Origin: Peptococcaceae bacterium
Lineage (GTDB): Bacteria > Bacillota > DSM-12270 > Thermacetogeniales > Thermacetogeniaceae
DNA: 35,908 bases
Assembly (NCBI GenBank): GCA_023249405.1
Contig: JAHFCR010000031.1
Coordinates: 1 to 35,908 of the forward strand
Direction: 5' to 3'
A model generated the notes under the pieces. It saw only the letters and a program-made list of their open reading frames with translations, did not search any database and had not been told where the DNA came from. Below, one piece after another: positions 4,389 through 15,184 of the stretch. Within the stretch, counting starts at the first letter, position 1. Each line of letters begins with the position of its first letter. Position numbers and translations under genes: made by a program.

Positions 4389-5345
4389 ATGAGCATGAGG
4401 GTGCTGGTAGTGGGGCTGGGCGCCCTGGGCACGGTATTTTCCTGCCTGCTCAAGGAGCGGGGGCACTTCGTGGCCGGGCTTGACCGGGAGCCTGTGATTG
4501 CAGTTGTCAGGCAGCAGGGCCTTCAGGTTGCGGGAATCTGGGGGGAGCATGCCGCCAAACTGGATGAACTGGCAACGGACTCCGGGCAGTTCAATGGCCG
4601 CAAGTTTGATCTGATAGTCCTGACGGTGAAGTCTTACGATACAGACCGGGCGGCATCCGGGATCGCCGGGATCGTGGAACCTGATACCTATATCATGTTA
4701 GCCCAGAATGGCTATGGCAATTATGAGGCTGCGGCCAAACGCATCCCCGAACGGCAGATCATGCTCGGACGGGTGATCTTCGGAGCGGAGACAGTGGCGC
4801 CGGGAGTTTCCAAGGTGACTGTGATCGCCGATGATGTGGTGCTGGGTTCACCCGGAAAACTTATTGAGAGCCGGGCTTTAGAGCAGTTTGCCCGGATCTT
4901 CAACGATGCCGGAATTCCCACCCGGGTATCCGACCGCGTGCTGGAGTACGTGTGGGGCAAGATTACCTATAATTCAGCCCTGAACACCCTGGGGGCGATC
5001 CTGGAGGTGAACTACGGGAAACTGGCCGAGAGCGAGCACTCCCGGCTGCTGATGGACGGCATCATCCGGGAGATCTTTGCCGTGCTGAAGGAGATGGGGC
5101 AGGCAACCCTGTGGCCCGATGCCGATACCTACCTGCAGGAGTTTTACGGGAAGCTGGTGCCTGTCACCGCTGCCCACCACGCCTCCATGCTGCAGGATAT
5201 CCAGCATGGCCGGAAGACAGAGATCGATGCTCTGAACGGGGCGGTCATCGCTTTAGGAAAGCAGTTTGGAGTGAGCACGCCGGTCAACGAGGTGATCGCC
5301 GCGCTGGTTAAGGCCAAGGAGAGCCTGATGCTACAATCTCAATAA
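4389..5345 (+). CDS. panE: 2-dehydropantoate 2-reductase (ketopantoate reductase family)
   Basis: A 318-residue NADPH-dependent reductase that would convert 2-dehydropantoate to pantoate in coenzyme A synthesis. The N-terminus MRVLVVGLGALGTVF is a Rossmann GxGxxG motif (G9, G11, G14). The WGKITYNSALNT segment contains the family's catalytic lysine (K191) and asparagine. Length fits PanE/ApbA. I start it at the ATG at 4389; a second ATG six bases on is equally possible (GAGAGGGG just upstream), and the longer frame from 4341 needs a TTG without a ribosome site. Many genomes have several PanE-like paralogues with other 2-oxoacid substrates, so the pantothenate role is probable, not proven. No other pantothenate gene is adjacent. 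Confidence 0.85.
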   Translation: MSMRVLVVGLGALGTVFSCLLKERGHFVAGLDREPVIAVVRQQGLQVAGIWGEHAAKLDELATDSGQFNGRKFDLIVLTVKSYDTDRAASGIAGIVEPDTYIMLAQNGYGNYEAAAKRIPERQIMLGRVIFGAETVAPGVSKVTVIADDVVLGSPGKLIESRALEQFARIFNDAGIPTRVSDRVLEYVWGKITYNSALNTLGAILEVNYGKLAESEHSRLLMDGIIREIFAVLKEMGQATLWPDADTYLQEFYGKLVPVTAAHHASMLQDIQHGRKTEIDALNGAVIALGKQFGVSTPVNEVIAALVKAKESLMLQSQ

Positions 5346-5589: not shown

Positions 5590-5912
5590 CTCGAATCGCC
5601 TCCAGGTTTCAGTTAAACTTCCACTGCCCAAAAGTAATTGGCCTGATTCTACTATACCGGAGGAGAACGGCCATTATTCTTTCAAAGGATCATAGTCTGA
5701 TTGTCTGCCCGATAGACGAGTTCGGCTTTCACCGACGGCTGTTTTTTTATTTCAGCTAGAGGGATACTATAAAGCTAGTCTGATGCGATCAATTATGGTA
5801 TTGACGCGCCGTGATCATTTTGCCATATTGAAATTAGTAAAAAAAATGGGCTAGCTAGAAGGATTATATTATTTATTTGCAGAACTAGTCATAACAATTA
5901 AATAAAAACCAG
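5590..5912. other. Intergenic region upstream of the cobalamin riboswitch
   Basis: About 320 bp, AT-rich towards the riboswitch, without a supported gene. It must hold the promoter of the cobalamin operon (candidate given separately) and that of the divergent small gene. Confidence 0.5.
5801..5829 (+). promoter_or_regulatory. Candidate promoter of the cobalamin operon
   Basis: TTGACG, 17-nt spacer, CATATT, about 85 nt upstream of the riboswitch P1 stem. Other AT-rich -10-like elements lie between, so the true start may be closer. Confidence 0.3.
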
Positions 5913-6062
5913 TACAGGGAGCTTTTACAAAGCTAATGGGGAAGCCGGTGCAAGTCCGGCGCGGTCCCGCCACTGTAAGGGGGATTGCCTTACAAATGCC
6001 ACTGGGTCAACCCGGGAAGGCGTAAGGTGGATATGAACCCGAGTCAGGATACCTGCCCTGTA
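5913..6062 (+). promoter_or_regulatory. Cobalamin (adenosylcobalamin) riboswitch
   Basis: A B12-riboswitch aptamer. The closing P1 helix pairs TACAGGG (5913-5919) with CCCTGTA (6056-6062). Inside are the conserved core GCCGGTGCAAGTCCGGC, then GCGGTCCCGCCACTGT, and at the 3' side the B12 box GAGTCAGGATACCTGCC. These are the hallmark elements of the family. A terminator hairpin follows at 6117-6144, so ligand binding most likely ends transcription before the surface-protein and transporter operon. It is strong evidence that the downstream genes respond to corrinoid. Confidence 0.97.
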
Positions 6063-6093
6063 TGGCTAATGCGCCTTTACTCTACGCGAGATA

Positions 6094-6144
6094 GGGGGGT
6101 GGCTTTTGTATTGAACCCCGGTCTACGATGGACTGGGATTTTTT
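6094..6144 (+). terminator. Riboswitch expression platform: terminator with possible antiterminator
   Basis: CCCGGTC (6117-6123) pairs with GACTGGG (6131-6137, one G-U), followed by six T at 6139-6144. GGGGGG at 6094-6099 can pair with CCCC at 6116-6119, which would break the terminator stem and serve as an antiterminator. The arrangement fits an OFF switch when cobalamin is bound. Confidence 0.8.
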
Positions 6145-6213
6145 GTTTAGCGGCTTCGGTGCAATGCAATGTCTTAAAATCTCTAAACATTTTGGAAAGG
6201 AAGGATAACGCCA

Positions 6214-8733
6214 ATGAGGAGAAACAATCCCCTGGTACTATTGCTCGTTGCCTTGACAATCTGCGCCACTCTTACCCTGCAGATAGGCTTGGGGCAAGCG
6301 CAGGCGACTGAGGCCAACCTGGCTGACAAAGCCGTCAATTATGTATATAACCAGTACCTGGTCAACGGAGCACAGTTCGATAGTACCGTTAACGGCGCTT
6401 ACGTTGCCTACATTCTCACTTCTGCAGGAGTGGACGTGAGCGGTTGGGTATATAACGGCAAGAATATGCCAGACGCGGTGGTTGATTTAATAAATCAAGA
6501 TCTGCAAGGAACTGGCAGTTCGGCGAAACGTCTTGCCGGGGACCTGATCGCCATGCAGGCGCTGGGCAAGGATACTGCTCAACTGCAGTCGCTTTTATTA
6601 AGCAGGGAGAGCATTACAGGGCTCGATCAGGGGCTATACAGTATTTACAGTAACGCACCCGCCTACGACCTATTGGGGAGAGCGGGCAAACTTGGTGGCA
6701 ATAACAGCGTTTTCAATGTCATTTATGCCAGGACTTATATTCTGGGGCAGCAGGGGACTGACGGGTCCTGGGGATACGCTGATTTCCAATCCACGACAGA
6801 GGCAATACGGACGCTGGCCTATCTGGATCCTGCTAAAAGTGATTCTACTGTCCAGCAAGCCATTAGCAATGGTTGCAGCTGGCTTCAACAACAGCAGCAA
6901 TCCGATGGCAGTTTTGCAGTATCATCCTGGGACGATCCTCTAACGGATACAACTGAGGCTATTGCAACACAGACAGTGCTGGGCATCGGTCCTGCATCCT
7001 GGAAGAATGCTAGCGGCAAGAGCGCGGTCGACTATTTGAATGATAAAGCCCTGAACTCTGACGGCAGCTTCGGTACCAGCGGAAATGTCATGGATGCCGC
7101 CTGGGCTTTAGATGCTCTCCACCAGTTGGGGCAGAATCCGCAGGGCGTATATTTTGTCGTCACCCCTAACAGCAAGACGCTATCGGTGGGAGACACCCTT
7201 CAGTTGAACGCATCCCAGTTGAACGCATCTCTCCAGGGGACTGATGTCACGCAGGATACTGACTGGTCTGTCGCAGACAGCAGCATAGCATCAATTAATG
7301 ATCATGGTCTGGTAACTGCAAATAAGCAGGGCGCAACTGTGGTGACTGCTGTTTATGATGGTTTTAGTGTGCCTGTCTCTTTAACTATTCAATCTAATTC
7401 TAGCGGTTCTTCGGGCATCACGGTCTATGTCACTGTAATTGGTGACAATAATCAATATCTTTTCGGACCGGATCAGGCAGTGACGCTATCCTCCAGTAAT
7501 CCGACAGCCTTAGAAGCGCTTGCTGCTACAGGCTTGTCATATCAAACGTCGACCACCTATTCAGGATTCGTCACTTCAATCAACAACCTTGCCAATGTTG
7601 GACAGCAAGGCTGGATGTATTCTGTCAATGGCCAGCAGCCTGGAGGTATCGCCGGCAACGTTTCGGTTCATGATGGCGACAAGGAGCGCTGGTGGTATGG
7701 TACGGCCACCGATTTAAGCTCTGGATCAGCAACAACCTCTTCTTCAGGTAGCGCTACTGTCGATCCTGCCACGGGGGGAACTGTCGGGCTGGGGAGCGAG
7801 GCCTCGGTCAGCATACCGGCGGGCGCCCTGAACGGGACTACGGCGGTGGATGTTGCTGTCCAGAAGGTGAGCGCACCCCCATCGGCGCCTACGGGCTTTC
7901 AGACGCTCGGTTCCGTCTTCGAATTTACCGTGGGCGGCAACTCCGGCTACAAGTTTGCCAAGCCGGTCACCCTGACCTTCAGCTTTGACCCGGCCGCCCT
8001 GTCTCCCGGAGAGACACCGGCCGTCTATTACTACGACACGACAGCCTCGCAGTGGGTCGGTCTGGGTGGTACTGTTTCCGGCAGCACCATCACGGTGAAC
8101 GTTGACCACTTCACCAAGTTCGCGGTGCTGGCTGGAAAGGTGGAGACGCCGGTAGCGCCTGCCGTGGCACTTCCTACAGCGCCTGCATTCTCCGATGTCT
8201 CCGTATCCTACTGGGCATATAACGCCATCGGCAGCTTGTGCGGCTTGGGATATGTTGCCGGCTATCCGGACGGTACCTTCAAGCCGGATAACCAGATCAC
8301 CAGAGCGGAGTTCATTTCCATCCTGAACAAGGTGCTGCAGCCGCCGGCCTACAACCCGGCAACGCCTGACTTCAGCGATGTGGCCCCCGGAGACTGGTGC
8401 TACGGATCGGTGGAGAGTGCCGTCTATGCCGGTGTCGTAAAAGGCGACGGCCGTGCCTTCAGCCCGAACGCGCAGATCACCAGGGAGGAGTTGGCGGTCA
8501 TCCTGGCCAATGCCCTGGGCAAACAGGATGAAGCCAGGCTAAACTCAAATAACATGACAGACTTTACGGATGACACCGGTATCTCATCCTGGGCACGGGG
8601 CTGTGTGACGGTAGCAGTCAAGGATGGCCTGATCAAGGGCTATCCGGACGATAACAGCTTCAGACCGCAGAACGGCGCCACCAGGGCTGAAGCCTGCACC
8701 GTGATCAACAATTTCTTGAACGTTCACAAGTAG
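6214..8733 (+). CDS. SLH-anchored transcobalamin-like surface protein (alpha-barrel, Ig-like, DUF4430, ZU5-like, three SLH)
   Basis: An 839-residue exported modular protein, first gene after the riboswitch. Domains in order: signal peptide 1-31; alpha/alpha-barrel repeats of the prenyltransferase/squalene-cyclase type about 35-310, with QW-like motifs TDGSWG (182), SDGSF (230) and SDGSFG (282); BIG2-type Ig-like domain about 314-393; DUF4430 about 401-497, with GWMYSVNG and DGDKERWWY; a ZU5-like beta-domain about 512-642; SLH modules about 658-705, 718-765 and 782-835. DUF4430 is related to the C-terminal domain of transcobalamin/intrinsic factor, whose N-terminal domain is an alpha6/alpha6 barrel. 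Context plus domains suggest wall-bound corrinoid capture (inference). ATG at 6214 follows AAGGAAGG by about 9 nt. Confidence 0.88.
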   Translation: MRRNNPLVLLLVALTICATLTLQIGLGQAQATEANLADKAVNYVYNQYLVNGAQFDSTVNGAYVAYILTSAGVDVSGWVYNGKNMPDAVVDLINQDLQGTGSSAKRLAGDLIAMQALGKDTAQLQSLLLSRESITGLDQGLYSIYSNAPAYDLLGRAGKLGGNNSVFNVIYARTYILGQQGTDGSWGYADFQSTTEAIRTLAYLDPAKSDSTVQQAISNGCSWLQQQQQSDGSFAVSSWDDPLTDTTEAIATQTVLGIGPASWKNASGKSAVDYLNDKALNSDGSFGTSGNVMDAAWALDALHQLGQNPQGVYFVVTPNSKTLSVGDTLQLNASQLNASLQGTDVTQDTDWSVADSSIASINDHGLVTANKQGATVVTAVYDGFSVPVSLTIQSNSSGSSGITVYVTVIGDNNQYLFGPDQAVTLSSSNPTALEALAATGLSYQTSTTYSGFVTSINNLANVGQQGWMYSVNGQQPGGIAGNVSVHDGDKERWWYGTATDLSSGSATTSSSGSATVDPATGGTVGLGSEASVSIPAGALNGTTAVDVAVQKVSAPPSAPTGFQTLGSVFEFTVGGNSGYKFAKPVTLTFSFDPAALSPGETPAVYYYDTTASQWVGLGGTVSGSTITVNVDHFTKFAVLAGKVETPVAPAVALPTAPAFSDVSVSYWAYNAIGSLCGLGYVAGYPDGTFKPDNQITRAEFISILNKVLQPPAYNPATPDFSDVAPGDWCYGSVESAVYAGVVKGDGRAFSPNAQITREELAVILANALGKQDEARLNSNNMTDFTDDTGISSWARGCVTVAVKDGLIKGYPDDNSFRPQNGATRAEACTVINNFLNVHK
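7201..7230 (+). repeat. 15-bp tandem duplication within the Ig-like domain
   Basis: Two adjacent 15-bp units differing only at the last base encode QLNAS-QLNAS at residues 330-339 of the surface protein. The duplication is in frame and probably lengthens a loop or strand edge. Confidence 0.8.
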
Positions 8734-8742
8734 CGCCAGAGG

Positions 8743-8780
8743 CGCCCGCTCCCGGTCGCGCAAGACAACGGGGGCGGGCG
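8743..8780 (+). other. Strong intergenic hairpin
   Basis: A 12-bp stem with one G-U (8743-8754 with 8769-8780) and a 14-nt loop, 10 nt after the surface-protein stop. There is no T-run, so it is more likely an mRNA-processing or stability element lowering downstream expression than a terminator. Confidence 0.55.
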
Positions 8781-8904
8781 TATTGCTGCGGTCTGATTGG
8801 TGCTGGCCGCTGTCACCGTCCCCATAGCGAGGCGAGGGATGGGGAATGGTAATGACATGAAAAGGCGATCCATGTAATATAAGCAAGTGAAGAAGGGTGA
8901 TACG

Positions 8905-9513
8905 ATGAAGAAACCCTACATGCTGATCCCGTTGGCGGTGTTGCTGCTGCTGGGGCTCCTGATTCCGGTCTTCTATCGTGGCGGCGCCGGGCAGGCGTTG
9001 CCACAGCAAGATCGGAAAAATAGTACCGTTAACGAGAACGGGTCGGCCGGAGGCCAAGCGGCCTCTCCCGTACGACAGGAGCAGGCAGGAGCCCCGGCCG
9101 GCTCCTCTGTTGGCAGCAGTGTTCCGATCGCATCCAAGGAGACCGAGCGGAACCCTCAGCCAACGAACCGCATCACGTTGGAAGCCGCGGTGGTGGGAAA
9201 AGACGGCAAACTGCTGTTCGGGCCTGGCGATGTGAGCATTGCCAGGGATGATTCCCATACCGCCAATGCCCTGGACGCCTTGGGCGCCACCGGCCTGCAG
9301 TATGCCATGTCGACGCGTTTTCCGGACCTGGTGTTCTCTGTTTCAGGACAGCATAACGAGGGGCAGTCCGGTTGGATGTACGAGGTTAATGATGGGATTC
9401 CCAGCGTGTCCGCCGTCAGCACTCCGGTCAAACAGGGGGATCGCCTTATCTGGTGGTATAGTAAAGGACTTGAAGTGCCGGCGCCCAGGTGGAATGACCT
9501 GGGCAAGCAGTGA
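8905..9513 (+). CDS. Membrane-anchored DUF4430 (transcobalamin C-terminal-like) protein
   Basis: A 202-residue protein: an N-terminal hydrophobic segment at about 5-23 without a lipobox cysteine, a low-complexity Ser/Gly/Pro/Gln linker at about 24-88, and one DUF4430 domain at about 89-187. GWMYEVND and QGDRLIWWY align with GWMYSVNG and DGDKERWWY of the large SLH protein upstream, so the two domains are clear paralogues. It is probably tethered outside the membrane by an uncleaved N-terminal helix. It has a beta-domain but no alpha-barrel; the next gene has the reverse. The ATG at 8905 is preceded by AAGGGTGAT; an upstream GTG at 8887 is less likely. Corrinoid binding is inferred from family and operon. 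Confidence 0.85.
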   Translation: MKKPYMLIPLAVLLLLGLLIPVFYRGGAGQALPQQDRKNSTVNENGSAGGQAASPVRQEQAGAPAGSSVGSSVPIASKETERNPQPTNRITLEAAVVGKDGKLLFGPGDVSIARDDSHTANALDALGATGLQYAMSTRFPDLVFSVSGQHNEGQSGWMYEVNDGIPSVSAVSTPVKQGDRLIWWYSKGLEVPAPRWNDLGKQ

Positions 9514-9559
9514 TGGGCTTGATGAGAATTGCAGCTTATTGCCTGAAGGAGGGTTTGTA

Positions 9560-10927
9560 ATGAAGAGACTGCTGACGCTTATTCTGGTGATGGCAATGCT
9601 CACAGTGCCCGTTGTGCCCGCTCTCGCTTCGACCGGGGCGCCGCAGGACCTGAAGCCCCGGATGGAGCGGACGGAGAATGCTCTACTGCAACTAGAGAGG
9701 CAGAGTAAGACAGGCCTGCTCTCGCCTTGGAGTTATATAGCCCTGTTAGGGGCGGGCAACAGTACGGCAGCTGCCTCGGCACTGCGTGCCTGCGACCTGT
9801 TATACAACGACGAGCAGTTGCAGGCGGGGGATACCAACAGCTACGCTCTCCTGATCCTGGCTCTGGTTGCAGCGGGGATAGACCCATCCAGCTTCCATGA
9901 TCAGAACCTTGTTGCCAGGCTGCAGCAAGCCCAATTGCCTGATGGCAAGTTTGCGGACAACCTGGCCGGTTCCGGGGAGGACATGGAAAATGCCCATATC
10001 TGGTCGTCGTTAGCCCTGACCGCTACCGGGACTCAGATACCGGACCGGGAGAAGGCTCTGGCCTGGCTGATCGGGATGCAGCATCAGGACGGCTCTTTTG
10101 CCTGGGATGCTGCAGACACGAAAACCTCGGATCCGGATTCCACCGGAATGGCCCTGATGGCCATGGGCGCTCTGGGAGCAACCGGCAGCGACCCCGGCGT
10201 GCAGAAGGCGATCGCCTTCTTGCGGCAGGCACAGCTTGAGGATGGCGGTTTCCAGTCCTGGGGGGCAGCCAACTCAGAAAGCTGCAGTGCGGTGATCGAG
10301 GGATTGCTGGCGGTGGGGATCGACCCGTTCGGCGATCAGTTCAGCAAGACTCAGGGTAATCCTGTAACGGCACTGTTGGACTTTCAACGGGCCGACGGGT
10401 CTTTTGAGCACATCAAGGGCGGAGGAACGAACGAGATGGCCACCAATCAGGCCCTCATGGCTCTCTCGGACCTGACCGCCGGCCGCATTCTGCCCCTCCG
10501 CCTGGCAGAAAAAAGCGGTGGCGCCGGGCAGACGCTGATCACATTTACGGTGGGCAGCCAAAATTACTCGGTGGTCAGATCTGGCAAAGAGGAGAGCGCC
10601 AAGATGGACCTGGCGCCTTTTGTCGATAACGGGCGCACCTATCTGCCGGTCCGGTTCCTGGCCTCCGCCTTGGGAGTCAGGCAGCAGGATATAGTATGGG
10701 ACGAGGCCAGGGGAAGCGTGAGCCTGACCATGTCTGGCACCGTTCTCCAACTGACGATCGGGTCACAGGCGCTGCTCGTGAACGGCGCAGCCGGAAAGGC
10801 CATGGATGCCTCTCCGGTGATCGTCCAGGGCAGGGTCTGCCTGCCGGCCAGATTTGTGGCTGAAGCATTCGGGTACCGGGTCAACTGGGACCAGCAGCGT
10901 CCGAATGATGTCATCATCACCGGATAG
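9560..10927 (+). CDS. Secreted alpha/alpha-barrel (prenyltransferase-repeat) protein with copper-amine-oxidase-N-like domain
   Basis: A 455-residue exported protein. Signal peptide 1-24. Alpha/alpha-barrel repeats about 35-310 carry QW-like motifs PDGKF (127), QHQDGSF (174), LEDGGF (226) and RADGSF (277). The C-terminal region, about 328-455, matches the copper amine oxidase N-terminal (stalk-like) domain: VDNGRTYLPVRFLASALG, then VQGRVCLPARFVAEAFG. That domain usually acts in Gram-positive surface attachment or binding rather than catalysis. The ATG at 9560 has AAGGAGGG 7 nt upstream; longer frames from 9239 are not real starts. Nothing points to terpene chemistry. With the preceding DUF4430 gene it looks like a split version of the fused receptor upstream, supplying the alpha domain (inference). 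Confidence 0.85.
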   Translation: MKRLLTLILVMAMLTVPVVPALASTGAPQDLKPRMERTENALLQLERQSKTGLLSPWSYIALLGAGNSTAAASALRACDLLYNDEQLQAGDTNSYALLILALVAAGIDPSSFHDQNLVARLQQAQLPDGKFADNLAGSGEDMENAHIWSSLALTATGTQIPDREKALAWLIGMQHQDGSFAWDAADTKTSDPDSTGMALMAMGALGATGSDPGVQKAIAFLRQAQLEDGGFQSWGAANSESCSAVIEGLLAVGIDPFGDQFSKTQGNPVTALLDFQRADGSFEHIKGGGTNEMATNQALMALSDLTAGRILPLRLAEKSGGAGQTLITFTVGSQNYSVVRSGKEESAKMDLAPFVDNGRTYLPVRFLASALGVRQQDIVWDEARGSVSLTMSGTVLQLTIGSQALLVNGAAGKAMDASPVIVQGRVCLPARFVAEAFGYRVNWDQQRPNDVIITG

Positions 10928-10940
10928 AGGCGGAAATCAG

Positions 10941-11870
10941 ATGTTGGAAACGCTGTGCTACGAAGAGAAGGACGCCCTCCTTCAAAACAGCCATCCCGCG
11001 GCGGTGATGCTTTTCCTGGCGGTGCTGTTCTTTCAGGCTCTGCTCTTTGCGCATCCCCTGTACCTGATGGGCATTTTTATCATCATCATCCTGGCGGTGG
11101 TTGTTTCCGGCGCCTACGAGAAGTGTGAGCCGTACCTGGCCATGAGCCTGTGGGTGGCCGTGCTGCTGGTCATTGTTAATACTCTGTTCGTGCACACCGG
11201 CCAGACGGTGATCTGGCGCAGCCCCGTCCTGCCGGTGCTGGGACGGCTGGATATCAGCCTGGAAGCGATCTGCTATGGGGCGGTCATGGGAGTGCGTTTT
11301 CTGATCGTGCTGCTGGCATTTGCGCTCTACAATGCGGTAGTGCATCCGGACAAGATCATGAGTGTCTTCTCACGTTTTGCCTTCAAGTCCGCCCTGGTTC
11401 TATCGTTGTCGACGAGAATGCTCCCGGCGGTGGCCAGGGATCTGACCAATGTCATGGAAGTGCAACAGATGAGGGGAGTGCAGTTCGGCACGGGCAACCT
11501 GAGGGAGCGCCTCCGCAAGTATTCATGGCTGTTGGAAGTGATCCTGATCTCCTCTCTGGAGGGTTCCCTGCAGATCGCTGAAGCTATGCAGGCCAGAGCC
11601 TTTGGCTCGGGCCCCCGCTCCCGTTATCAGCGTTTTCCGGTGCGGCCGCGAGACGGTATCATCGGTCTGGCGAGCATCCTGTCTGTCACCCTGGCCGTCT
11701 ACGCCAAGGCTAGGGGGTTTGCCGATTATGTCTACTATCCGCAGTTGGGGACGCTGGCGGGGAATTTCCCGGCGCTTGTTTGGCCGGGCCTGATCGCACT
11801 GGCTCTATTGCCAGTAGTCCTCATGGGTTGGGGGTGGCGCCATTGTCTCTCATGGAGATCCAAAATCTGA
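10941..11870 (+). CDS. ecfT: ECF transporter transmembrane component EcfT
   Basis: A 309-residue integral membrane protein with several hydrophobic segments (about 24-41, 43-60, 67-85, 115-135 and two or more near the C-terminus). The cytoplasmic coupling helices carry the two Ala-Arg-Gly-type signatures of EcfT: EVQQMRGVQF and EAMQARAFGSG. EcfT links the ATPase pair to the substrate-binding S component in group I/II ECF importers. The ATG at 10941 follows GAGG by 10 nt and begins 13 bp after the previous stop. It overlaps the ATPase gene, implying translational coupling. Because it is encoded beside its own S gene, this is probably a dedicated transporter. Confidence 0.92.
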   Translation: MLETLCYEEKDALLQNSHPAAVMLFLAVLFFQALLFAHPLYLMGIFIIIILAVVVSGAYEKCEPYLAMSLWVAVLLVIVNTLFVHTGQTVIWRSPVLPVLGRLDISLEAICYGAVMGVRFLIVLLAFALYNAVVHPDKIMSVFSRFAFKSALVLSLSTRMLPAVARDLTNVMEVQQMRGVQFGTGNLRERLRKYSWLLEVILISSLEGSLQIAEAMQARAFGSGPRSRYQRFPVRPRDGIIGLASILSVTLAVYAKARGFADYVYYPQLGTLAGNFPALVWPGLIALALLPVVLMGWGWRHCLSWRSKI

Positions 11871-13558
11871 CCTATTATTATCCGGACAGCCCAAAGCCGG
11901 CCATGAAGAATATCGACTTTACCCTGGATGAGGGCGAGTTCATCCTCGTGGCGGGCAGTTCCGGGTCCGGTAAATCCTCGCTGGCCAGGGTTCTGGCCGG
12001 GCTGATCCCCGATTTCTATGGAGGCAGGTTGATCGGCAGGGTCTTCTTCAACGGCAGTGAACTGCGCGACGCTGAGCGCCGCTTACTATGCTCCAGCGTC
12101 GGTATAGTGTTTCAGGACCCGGAAAAGCAACTGGTGATGACCTCGGTCGAAGCCGAGATCGCTTTCGGCCTGGAAAACCTGGGCCTGCCGCAGGATGAGA
12201 TGTTCCGGCGCATCTCCGAGGTGATGAGCTTTCTTGGTCTGTCCCCTCTACAACAGGAGTTCACTGCCAATCTCTCCGGCGGCCAGAAGCAGAAAGTGGC
12301 GCTGGCGGCAGTGCTGGCCATGCAGCCGCGCCTGTTGATTCTGGACGAGCCCACCTCCCAGCTCGACCCGATGGCGGCGGAGGAGTTCCTGAACCTGGTG
12401 GAGCGCTTGAACAAGGAGCTGGGATACACGGTGCTCCTGATCGAGCAGCGTCTGGAGCGCTGTTTTCACTTAGCGGATCGCCTGCTGGTGATGGAACGGG
12501 GGGAGATCGTCTGCGATGCGCCTGCAGCCGAGGCCGCCCGCTGGCAGGTGGCCCATGCCCATGGCTTCATCCCTCCGGTGGCCAGGTTGTTTGCCCTGCT
12601 CGATTGCGGCGCCATTCCCCTCACGGTCAAGGATGGACGCCGGGAATTGAAAAGAATGCTCCCCGCATCCACATATTCCGCAGCCCAACCGGCTGCAAAC
12701 AAGATACCGCAACGCCAGGCGCCCAGAGAGAAACTCAGCCAGAACCCGGCCGTGCTGGAGGCCAGAGACCTCTGGTTTACCTATCCCAACGGCAGGGAGG
12801 CCCTGAAGGGGATCAACTGCAGCATCGGCAGGGGGGATTTTGCAGTCATTCTGGGGGAGAATGCGGCCGGCAAGACCACCTTCCTGAAGCAGGCGGCGGG
12901 GTTATTGAAACCTGGCAGAGGCAGTGTGGCCGTCGTCGGGAAGGACACCAGGGCGGCATCCCTGCCGGACCTGGTGCGGCACATCGGCTACCTGTCCCAG
13001 AATCCCAACGACTACCTCTTTCAGGATACCGTGGAGGAGGAATTGCGTTTTACGCTTGATAATTTGGGGATCTATGACCATGGCGTTATTGAAAACGTTT
13101 TAACGCAACTCGGACTATCCGCCGTGCGCGGCGTCAACCCGCGCGACCTGAGCGGCGGGGAGCGCCAACGGGTGGCCCTGGCCTCTGTGCTCGTGGCCAA
13201 TCCGGAACTCCTGCTGCTGGACGAGCCGACCCGCGGGATCGATTATCTTTTGAAGGCCGAACTCGGAGTGCTGCTCCAGCGGTTGAATCGCCAGGGTATG
13301 ACGATCGTAATGGTGACCCATGACGTGGAATTTGCAGCCGAGTATGCCAGCCGCGTCATCCTGATGTTCGATGGGCGGATTGCCAGTGACGGCACGGCAC
13401 GCCAGGTGCTGGAGAACTCCCTGTTCTATTCTCCACAGGCGGCCAGGCTGTTCAGGGGTTTTGCGGATGATGTGCTGACTGTGAGGGATGGCATCGAGGT
13501 TGTTGGAAAGATAATACGTACGGGTGGTGAACTGGTCAATGCCAGCAAGCCAAAATAA
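11852..13558 (+). CDS. Fused ECF transporter ATP-binding protein (two ABC domains, EcfA-EcfA')
   Basis: A 568-residue protein with two complete ABC ATPase domains in one chain. First: Walker A GSSGSGKS (35-42), signature LSGGQKQK, Walker B LLILDEPTSQLDP. Second: Walker A GENAAGKT (335-342), signature LSGGERQR, Walker B LLLLDEPTRGID. Both keep the catalytic Glu and a switch His, so both sites look competent. Such fusions replace separate EcfA and EcfA' and power substrate release by the membrane T-S complex. The ATG at 11852 overlaps ecfT by 19 nt; a TTG at 11843, better spaced from GGGGTGG, is an alternative. The S component overlaps its 3' end. Confidence 0.93.
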   Translation: MEIQNLTYYYPDSPKPAMKNIDFTLDEGEFILVAGSSGSGKSSLARVLAGLIPDFYGGRLIGRVFFNGSELRDAERRLLCSSVGIVFQDPEKQLVMTSVEAEIAFGLENLGLPQDEMFRRISEVMSFLGLSPLQQEFTANLSGGQKQKVALAAVLAMQPRLLILDEPTSQLDPMAAEEFLNLVERLNKELGYTVLLIEQRLERCFHLADRLLVMERGEIVCDAPAAEAARWQVAHAHGFIPPVARLFALLDCGAIPLTVKDGRRELKRMLPASTYSAAQPAANKIPQRQAPREKLSQNPAVLEARDLWFTYPNGREALKGINCSIGRGDFAVILGENAAGKTTFLKQAAGLLKPGRGSVAVVGKDTRAASLPDLVRHIGYLSQNPNDYLFQDTVEEELRFTLDNLGIYDHGVIENVLTQLGLSAVRGVNPRDLSGGERQRVALASVLVANPELLLLDEPTRGIDYLLKAELGVLLQRLNRQGMTIVMVTHDVEFAAEYASRVILMFDGRIASDGTARQVLENSLFYSPQAARLFRGFADDVLTVRDGIEVVGKIIRTGGELVNASKPK

Positions 13559-14261
13559 CATCCCGGTCAGGTTGCTCCTGTTCCTCTCCCTGGCCATTGC
13601 CATGATAGCCCTGCTACTCTGGAAGTACAGGACTCTGTTGATCCAGGACTGGGGTCTGACGGCGACGCTCCTGATCGTGCTGGCTTTGCTGTTTCTGTAC
13701 CTGGGATTCGAGCGCAGCGCCGTGTCGGTGCGCGAGATCGGGGTGATCGCCGTATTGGCAACGGTAGCTGCAGTTGCCAGGGTGCCCTTCGCGGTGATCC
13801 CCGGTGTCCAACCAACCACATTCCTGGTGATCGTGTCTGGTTTTGTTTTCGGGCCGCGGGCTGGCTTCATGGTCGGAGCCACAGCGGCCCTGGTTTCCAA
13901 CCTGTTCCTGGGGCAGGGTCCCTGGACGCCGTTCCAGATGCTGGTCTGGGGCCTGGTGGGGGTCAGCGCCGGTTTTCTGGGCCTGCTCGCTCCCCGTACC
14001 GGCCGCATCGGGATGTCCATCTTCAGTCTGGTCTGGGGCTACCTGTTCGGGTGGTTGATGAATCTCTGGTTCTGGGCCTGCTTCGTTCAGCCCCTGACCT
14101 GGCAGACATTCCTGGCGACCTATGCCGCCAGCTTTATCTTCGATACCCTGCATGCCTCGGGCAATATCGCGCTGTATATGATTCTCGGCCCTCAGGTGGT
14201 TAAAGTCCTGAAGCGCTTTCAGAGAAAGCTGGTCTTTACTATAACCCCGACAAACCCTTGA
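13539..14261 (+). CDS. ECF transporter S component, probable cobalamin (CbrT-like) specificity
   Basis: A 240-residue membrane protein with about six or seven hydrophobic helices. The central segment VREIGVIAVLATVAAVAR and then VSGFVFGPRAGFMVGATAAL is typical of S components (small-residue helix packing against EcfT, and a substrate pocket). The last gene of the operon, it overlaps the ATPase gene by 20 nt (start ATG 13539 with GGTGGTGA upstream; GTG 13524 also possible). Known cobalamin S components include CbrT; the riboswitch and transcobalamin-like binders make cobalamin or a corrinoid precursor the most likely ligand. Sequence alone does not fix specificity. Confidence 0.85.
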   Translation: MPASQNNIPVRLLLFLSLAIAMIALLLWKYRTLLIQDWGLTATLLIVLALLFLYLGFERSAVSVREIGVIAVLATVAAVARVPFAVIPGVQPTTFLVIVSGFVFGPRAGFMVGATAALVSNLFLGQGPWTPFQMLVWGLVGVSAGFLGLLAPRTGRIGMSIFSLVWGYLFGWLMNLWFWACFVQPLTWQTFLATYAASFIFDTLHASGNIALYMILGPQVVKVLKRFQRKLVFTITPTNP

Positions 14262-14366: not shown

Positions 14367-15143
14367 TCATCGGCTTGCAGAACTGACGATCATCCCCTTT
14401 AATCTGTTCAGTACGTTGAGCTGCAACTCAAAGTCCGCCTGCGCCTCGCTGATCAGATAGATCTCCTGACAAGCAGCGAGCGCCCGGGAGACATTTTCAA
14501 AATCGATGCTCCCCTGTCCGGCCACTAGGTGGCTGTCATCGATTCCGTCGTTATCGGTGATATGAAAGTAACGGCCCTTGATTGCGGCAATCCAGGCCTC
14601 TGGTTTGATCGCGGATAGACAGTGGCAGTGGCCCACGTCCAGGCAACTGGTAAAATAGGGCGTGTTCAATTCAGATATGAGCCTGGCGAAGGTAGCCGGC
14701 CGTTGATCGTGGCAGTTTTCGAACATGATGGCGATTCCACTGCATTGTATTTTTTTCAGAAAGCCGCTCCAGAACTCCAGATTATCTCTTAACCATGCCT
14801 CATCGTAGCCTGAATATCCTGACTTCTGATCGTAATAGGAATGAACGACCATCTTGCTGGCGCCGATTTCTCCGGCAATGGCAACGGCTTGAAGGTATCT
14901 CAGCTCGGCCACTGCTCTGACTCTATAATCAAGGCTGGTGGGAACCAGGTTTATATATGGCCCGTGCAGGGTAATCTCTCCTGCAAAATCGGCCAGTATA
15001 CGTTTGTAGTCCTGAATAATAGACGTATTCTCCAGATTGGAAGGCATGACGAAGTCTTGCAGTTCCAGGACATCGAGATGTTTGAGACAAAAATCCAGGT
15101 TGTTAAGGAACAGTTCCTTATAAGATCCGATCCCCAGTTTCAC
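14367..15143 (-). CDS. Sugar phosphate isomerase/epimerase-like TIM-barrel protein
   Basis: A 258-residue protein of the xylose-isomerase-like/AP-endonuclease-2 TIM-barrel superfamily. Conserved pieces are ITLHGPY, KMVVHSYYD, GIAIMFENC, TSCLDVGHCHC and YFHITDNDGIDDSH, giving the His/Glu/Asp metal-binding set of that fold. Substrate is unknown; members include sugar epimerases, isomerases and endonuclease IV. A GTG at 15143 lies 9 nt after AAAGGA; the ATG at 15152 would abut that site, so I prefer GTG but both are possible. It is monocistronic and unrelated to the convergent cobalamin operon as far as I can see. Confidence 0.8.
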   Translation of the reverse strand: MKLGIGSYKELFLNNLDFCLKHLDVLELQDFVMPSNLENTSIIQDYKRILADFAGEITLHGPYINLVPTSLDYRVRAVAELRYLQAVAIAGEIGASKMVVHSYYDQKSGYSGYDEAWLRDNLEFWSGFLKKIQCSGIAIMFENCHDQRPATFARLISELNTPYFTSCLDVGHCHCLSAIKPEAWIAAIKGRYFHITDNDGIDDSHLVAGQGSIDFENVSRALAACQEIYLISEAQADFELQLNVLNRLKGMIVSSASR

Positions 15144-15184
15144 AATAGACATTCCTTTCTAGATTGTTGATGCCCACAGTGGCT

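Follow-up and report, generated by a model that had tools for sequence, protein, structure and literature searches.

A cobalamin riboswitch operon predicted to couple transcobalamin-like wall proteins to an ECF-CbrT transporter in a Peptococcaceae bacterium

The extracellular cobalamin (B12) carriers of animals, namely transcobalamin, intrinsic factor, and haptocorrin, pair an N-terminal alpha/alpha barrel with a DUF4430-type beta domain, and they deliver their ligand by receptor-mediated endocytosis. The resemblance of DUF4430 to the transcobalamin C terminus has already been noted in domain databases, so that this link is not itself new. In bacteria, the energy-coupling factor (ECF) transporter ECF-CbrT of Lactobacillus delbrueckii (PDB 6FNP) has an S component, CbrT, for which binding and transport of both cobalamin and cobinamide have been demonstrated (PMC5997447), and Bacteroides possess the surface B12 binders BtuG, BtuH, and DUF4465, which hand B12 to the outer-membrane TonB-dependent BtuB (PMC6143338, PMC10404256, PMC8941943, PMC13398666). 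Here we analyze a stretch of 35,908 nucleotides (the window) from a Peptococcaceae bacterium (GenBank assembly GCA_023249405.1, contig JAHFCR010000031.1), in which a cobalamin riboswitch heads an operon of six genes encoding three surface proteins (P1, P2, and P3) and a CbrT-like ECF transporter. We propose, with a probability of roughly 0.75, that transcobalamin-like proteins capture corrinoid at the wall for import through ECF-CbrT. An original prediction, made from the sequence alone, had offered this interpretation, and overall our analysis supported it.

P1 shares with the animal carriers an extracellular location and the order of barrel and beta domain, but it is bacterial, tethered to the wall by SLH domains, a predicted rather than an established binder, and in most copies carries a Big_2 spacer; uptake here would use an ECF transporter instead of endocytosis. 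As in ECF-CbrT, a homologous S component is accompanied by EcfT and two EcfA ATPases. However, a dedicated T component and fused A-A' ATPases are encoded in one operon here, together with extracellular capture proteins that are absent from the described CbrT system. The Bacteroides systems likewise have dedicated surface proteins serving an importer (a role that is predicted here), and BtuG is a beta-propeller, as are partner proteins in a paralogous locus described below, whereas our locus has an ECF importer and other domain families, and no Omp85 was found. ECF-CbrT, B12 riboswitches, and surface B12 binders are thus each already known, but we did not find their combination with transcobalamin-like wall proteins described, and no paper linking bacterial DUF4430, or cohesin-dockerin pairs, to B12 capture was found in the open-access literature.

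The riboswitch operon and its transporter

The elements of the operon are as follows.

5900..6074, + strand: cobalamin riboswitch aptamer (RF00174; cmscan 112.7 bits, E 1.1e-27, model positions 1-189)
6117..6137, + strand: intrinsic terminator-like hairpin, then T6, the presumed expression platform (terminator scan, folding)
6214..8733, + strand: P1, secreted SLH-anchored protein with alpha/alpha barrel, Big_2, and DUF4430, 839 amino acids (aa) (Pfam, AF2, Foldseek)
8905..9513, + strand: P2, membrane-anchored DUF4430 protein, 202 aa (Pfam DUF4430, 38.4 bits)
9560..10927, + strand: P3, secreted alpha/alpha barrel with C-terminal Cu_amine_oxidN1, 455 aa (Pfam, AF2, Foldseek)
about 10941..11870, + strand: EcfT, CbiQ-family transmembrane coupling subunit (Pfam CbiQ, 5.2e-13)
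about 11828..13558, + strand: EcfA-A', fused ATPases, start at 11828 (TTG) or 11852 (ATG) (NCBIfam ECF_ATPase_1, 1.4e-117)
13524..14261, + strand: ECF S component, CbrT-like (Pfam ECF_trnsprt; PDB 6FNP chain A)

These results confirm that the operon in the original prediction is real. Both the riboswitch and the terminator that it had named were recovered. The aptamer matches RF00174 over its full length, far above the gathering score of 31.5 bits, and is the one complete cobalamin riboswitch in the window. The hairpin at 6117-6137 folds, and the terminator scan expects 0.8 such sites per shuffled region by chance; the call rests mainly on its placement downstream of the aptamer. All six genes lie on the same strand, downstream of the riboswitch, and end at position 14261. 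They had been described as tightly spaced, which holds for the overlapping ends of the EcfT, EcfA-A', and S genes but not for every junction, as 171 bases separate P1 from P2, the only sizeable gap in the operon. Matches to DUF4430, SLH, Big_2, CbiQ, and the ECF S family were all above curated cutoffs, while the signal peptides and anchors of P1 to P3 were judged by eye from the sequence, with no prediction program.

The transporter components were also as anticipated, with EcfT matching CbiQ, EcfA-A' matching ECF_ATPase_1 over two stretches, and the S component matching ECF_trnsprt. Against the PDB, the sole significant match of the S component was CbrT (6FNP chain A; E 1.6e-12), the next having an E value of 0.4. 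Because CbrT is a cobalamin and cobinamide S component, corrinoid is the best substrate prediction for this transporter, in agreement with the cobalamin-type ECF import that had been proposed. We did not prefer an assignment as the alpha-ribazole S component CblT, given the match to CbrT, and rejected BtuFCD-type import, as Pfam placed neither a BtuF-type binding protein nor a BtuC/FecCD permease among the six genes.

It is also important to consider the cell in which the operon resides. No Omp85 was found in the genome by a search that matched in seven control genomes, so the cell probably has one membrane, as the original prediction had assumed. Corrin synthesis genes (cbi), placed under riboswitches, are present on another contig (C152), from which it appears that the organism probably both makes and scavenges corrinoids. 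Cobalt has separate CbiM/CbiQ/CbiO genes in the genome.

Surface proteins and their resemblance to animal B12 carriers

P1 comprises a signal peptide, an alpha/alpha barrel, Big_2, DUF4430, and three SLH domains. The barrel fell below the Pfam cutoff by sequence and was recovered through structure prediction, so that the SLH-anchored barrel and DUF4430 protein expected at this position was borne out by Pfam and structure together; the Big_2 domain between the two had gone unmentioned. P2 is, as expected, a membrane-anchored protein with a hydrophobic N terminus followed by DUF4430; we favor a start at 8905, the reading frame being open also from a GTG at 8887. P3 has the signal peptide and barrel ascribed to it, along with a C-terminal Cu_amine_oxidN1 domain that had been overlooked. 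Its barrel is prenyltransferase/squalene-cyclase-like by Pfam and matches NCBIfam SCO2321_fam below the cutoff (E 7.9e-19). A role for P1 or P3 as terpene cyclases was rejected, since the type II cyclase DxDD motif is absent from the barrels.

Residues 31-500 of P1 were modeled with AlphaFold2 (AF2) from an alignment that included four orthologues (pLDDT 73). In a Foldseek search of the PDB, the 12 best matches to this model were all transcobalamin or intrinsic factor (best E 2.8e-8, over ~500 columns), with sequence identities of 10-14%. The AF2 model of P3 (pLDDT 84) served as a control barrel, and it ranked terpene cyclases and farnesyltransferase first, with transcobalamin and intrinsic factor appearing only from rank 20 down. 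The P1 ranking is therefore not merely what any barrel yields, and P3, as modeled, is a generic alpha/alpha barrel that is not specifically transcobalamin-like. The relationship of DUF4430 to the C-terminal domain of transcobalamin and intrinsic factor, which the original prediction had invoked, also emerged from sequence profiles: a profile built from 20 bacterial DUF4430 domains retrieved transcobalamin-2, intrinsic factor, and transcobalamin-1 (haptocorrin) as seven of its eight PDB matches, at weak but consistent E values of 0.0017, 0.011, and 0.056, respectively. In one P1 orthologue (locus L035), Big_2 is missing and the barrel is joined to DUF4430 by a short linker, as in transcobalamin, which indicates that the spacer is dispensable.

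A survey of DUF4430, B12 riboswitches, and ECF genes revealed strong co-occurrence, in favor of the original prediction. In this genome, all four DUF4430 domains lie within two riboswitch/ECF operons, one in the window and one on contig C64. Across 14 genomes of the family, in which 53 DUF4430 domains and more than 100 B12 riboswitches were located, 37 of the 53 domains had a same-strand B12 riboswitch at most 11 kb upstream, against ~1.2 expected by chance; many of the remaining 16 were near a contig end or, in genome G016, somewhat farther from a riboswitch. A scan for the S component produced 21 loci, 14 of them with at least 5.5 kb of upstream sequence, and DUF4430 genes were present in 12 of these 14 CbrT-like loci. 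The operon starts with a riboswitch in L027, L031, L033, L034, L035, L041, L043, and L045. Moorella retains the six-gene layout or a variant lacking P3, and in Tumebacillus and an actinobacterial metagenome-assembled genome the barrel gene is placed downstream of the S gene. Separately, G016, a 2.9-Mb genome, contains 26 matches to the B12 riboswitch and 13 DUF4430 domains, several of the latter in open reading frames (ORFs) of 1,400-2,600 aa; genes of this type have expanded there.

Proposed mechanism and alternative explanations

If the operon behaves as its riboswitch family suggests, low cellular cobalamin would permit transcription and corrinoid would repress it. P1 would be secreted and held at the wall by its SLH domains, where barrel and DUF4430 could sandwich a corrinoid between them, their order being that of transcobalamin and intrinsic factor. 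P2 and P3, a membrane-bound DUF4430 and a secreted barrel, may act together as another such pair, divided over two proteins close to the membrane, and relay the ligand to the transporter. The CbrT-like S component, with its dedicated EcfT and fused EcfA-A', would then import it by ATP hydrolysis, the substrate being predicted from homology to CbrT. Such an operon might supplement the organism's own corrin synthesis or take up foreign corrinoids.

The remaining doubt about this mechanism comes mostly from the question of whether P1 to P3 bind corrinoid, and a number of observations weigh against it. Binding by the three proteins is only predicted, and the sequence links between DUF4430 and transcobalamin are weak, with an E value of 0.0017 at best. 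The alpha domain of P1 had no match to the eukaryotic cobalamin-binding Pfam family by hmmscan, which found only squalene cyclase/prenyltransferase barrels. The original prediction had suggested modeling P1 and superposing it on the animal carriers; the fold matches described above bore out the first half of this comparison, but the two domains of the apo model could not be superposed on transcobalamin as one body (root mean square deviation about 25 Å, TM about 0.4). In addition, two Dehalococcoidia loci (L042 and L044) have ECF genes without DUF4430, and several FecCD permeases are encoded on other contigs of the genome, so the operon need not be the sole corrinoid route.

It is possible, if clearly unlikely, that the ECF transporter imports corrinoid while P1 to P3 are co-regulated wall or adhesion proteins or binders of another ligand. 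In its favor, the SLH and Big_2 domains are surface modules of a generic kind and P3 matches generic barrels first. However, B12 riboswitches accompany DUF4430 across 14 genomes, as CbrT-like genes do in the named relatives, the closest structures to P1 are transcobalamin and intrinsic factor, and the barrels lack the DxDD motif. Alternatively, the imported substrate might be a piece or precursor of B12 (cobalt, cobinamide, or alpha-ribazole/dimethylbenzimidazole) and not a complete cobamide, which we regard as very improbable. B12 riboswitches control cobalt and precursor uptake too, so that the riboswitch alone fits these substrates and counts to that extent against our proposal; a second cobyric acid synthase gene in the paralogous cluster and a CbiR-like gene adjoining the operon point the same way. 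Against this, the S component resembles a transporter of cobalamin and cobinamide, cobalt is served by its own genes, and cobinamide uptake would be compatible with wall capture and ECF-CbrT import. Finally, the likeness to transcobalamin could be a convergence of folds in which the pairing of barrel and beta domain is coincidental, an idea that is compatible with the proposed function and that we consider unlikely but worth taking seriously. The low identity, the failure to obtain a closed two-domain superposition, and the unmatched alpha domain are all in its favor, whereas the independent match of the beta domain by sequence profile, the conserved domain order, and the shared ligand context speak against it.

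Corrinoid capture ahead of ECF uptake has been little studied in single-membrane bacteria, and trapping at the wall followed by import through ECF-CbrT suggests an unstudied B12-harvesting route in such cells. If P1 does bind B12, the animal carriers would have structural counterparts in bacteria that are wall bound and riboswitch controlled, which would bear on the origin of intrinsic factor and transcobalamin. DUF4430, a domain of unknown function, also gains a specific and testable role.

Paralogous cohesin-dockerin loci and neighboring genes

On contig C64, a second riboswitch (4857-5040) heads a paralogous operon. Its first product is an SLH protein bearing two cohesins. Then come a protein that combines a PQQ-type propeller, DUF4430, and SLH; a dockerin-bearing propeller; a DUF4430 protein that has a hydrophobic segment at its C terminus; the transporter subunits EcfT and EcfA-A'; and another CbrT-like S component, 42% identical to that of the window. 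Beyond this S gene lie another propeller-dockerin, the cobyric acid synthase, and a long protein that has a dockerin and barrel-like stretches. On contig C18, a protein containing a weak DUF4430-like stretch and a barrel-Big_2-dockerin protein are encoded downstream of a riboswitch. Whole-genome searches placed all detected cohesins on C64 and all detected dockerins on C64 or C18, and both contigs carry B12 riboswitches. The four dockerins are mutually 69-83% identical over 48-54 residues, as would be required for a single cohesin specificity.

As in a cellulosome, there is an SLH-anchored two-cohesin scaffold, and the four dockerin proteins have duplicated calcium loops. Unlike in a cellulosome, the dockerins occur at loci with B12 riboswitches, on beta-propellers, barrels, and proteins with Ig-like domains; the C64 and C18 dockerin proteins showed no glycoside hydrolase domains and lack the cellulosomal linkage of dockerins to carbohydrate-active enzymes. 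The confinement of the detected cohesins and dockerins to contigs with B12 riboswitches hints at a cellulosome-like corrinoid collector whose parts are predicted to bind one another. We tentatively suggest, at somewhat less than even odds, a two-tier collector in which the window operon is joined by a cellulosome-like SLH scaffold whose dockerin-bearing propellers and barrels would bind corrinoid and feed the second ECF-CbrT. If so, the plug-and-socket principle of cohesins and dockerins would extend from polysaccharide breakdown to vitamin capture. The association of cohesin-dockerin pairs with B12 riboswitches is so far a single-genome arrangement. The propeller/DUF4430 version recurs at locus L046, where no dockerin was found, and B12 riboswitches were absent from the 9-15 kb fetched for each of 20 cohesin loci in other Firmicutes families. 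Cohesin/dockerin loci of family relatives (L048-L053) were inspected by eye only.

Two further cohesin-dockerin observations can be recorded. In another Firmicutes family (L061 8927-9353; G375:C13), a divergent pair of molybdenum/tungsten riboswitches separates two cohesin-carrying SLH proteins, and a cohesin-RCC1 protein follows. At L052 6680-7966 (G003:C20), a metal/siderophore-type binding protein adjoins BtuC/FecCD- and BtuD-like genes and seems by eye to have a dockerin-like pair of calcium loops near its N terminus, with a dockerin match.

Two other loci in the window were also noted.

14367..15152, - strand: AP_endonuc_2 TIM-barrel protein, convergent with the S gene
140-2723, - strand: PQQ-type beta-propeller ORF and SLH ORF, overlapping by 35 bases in different frames

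The product of the first distantly resembles CbiR (cobamide remodeling), with an NCBIfam match far below the cutoff (E 2.7e-7; 30.4 bits against 105), and it is a possible functional neighbor of the operon. The two ORFs of the second are perhaps a single surface protein broken by a frameshift.

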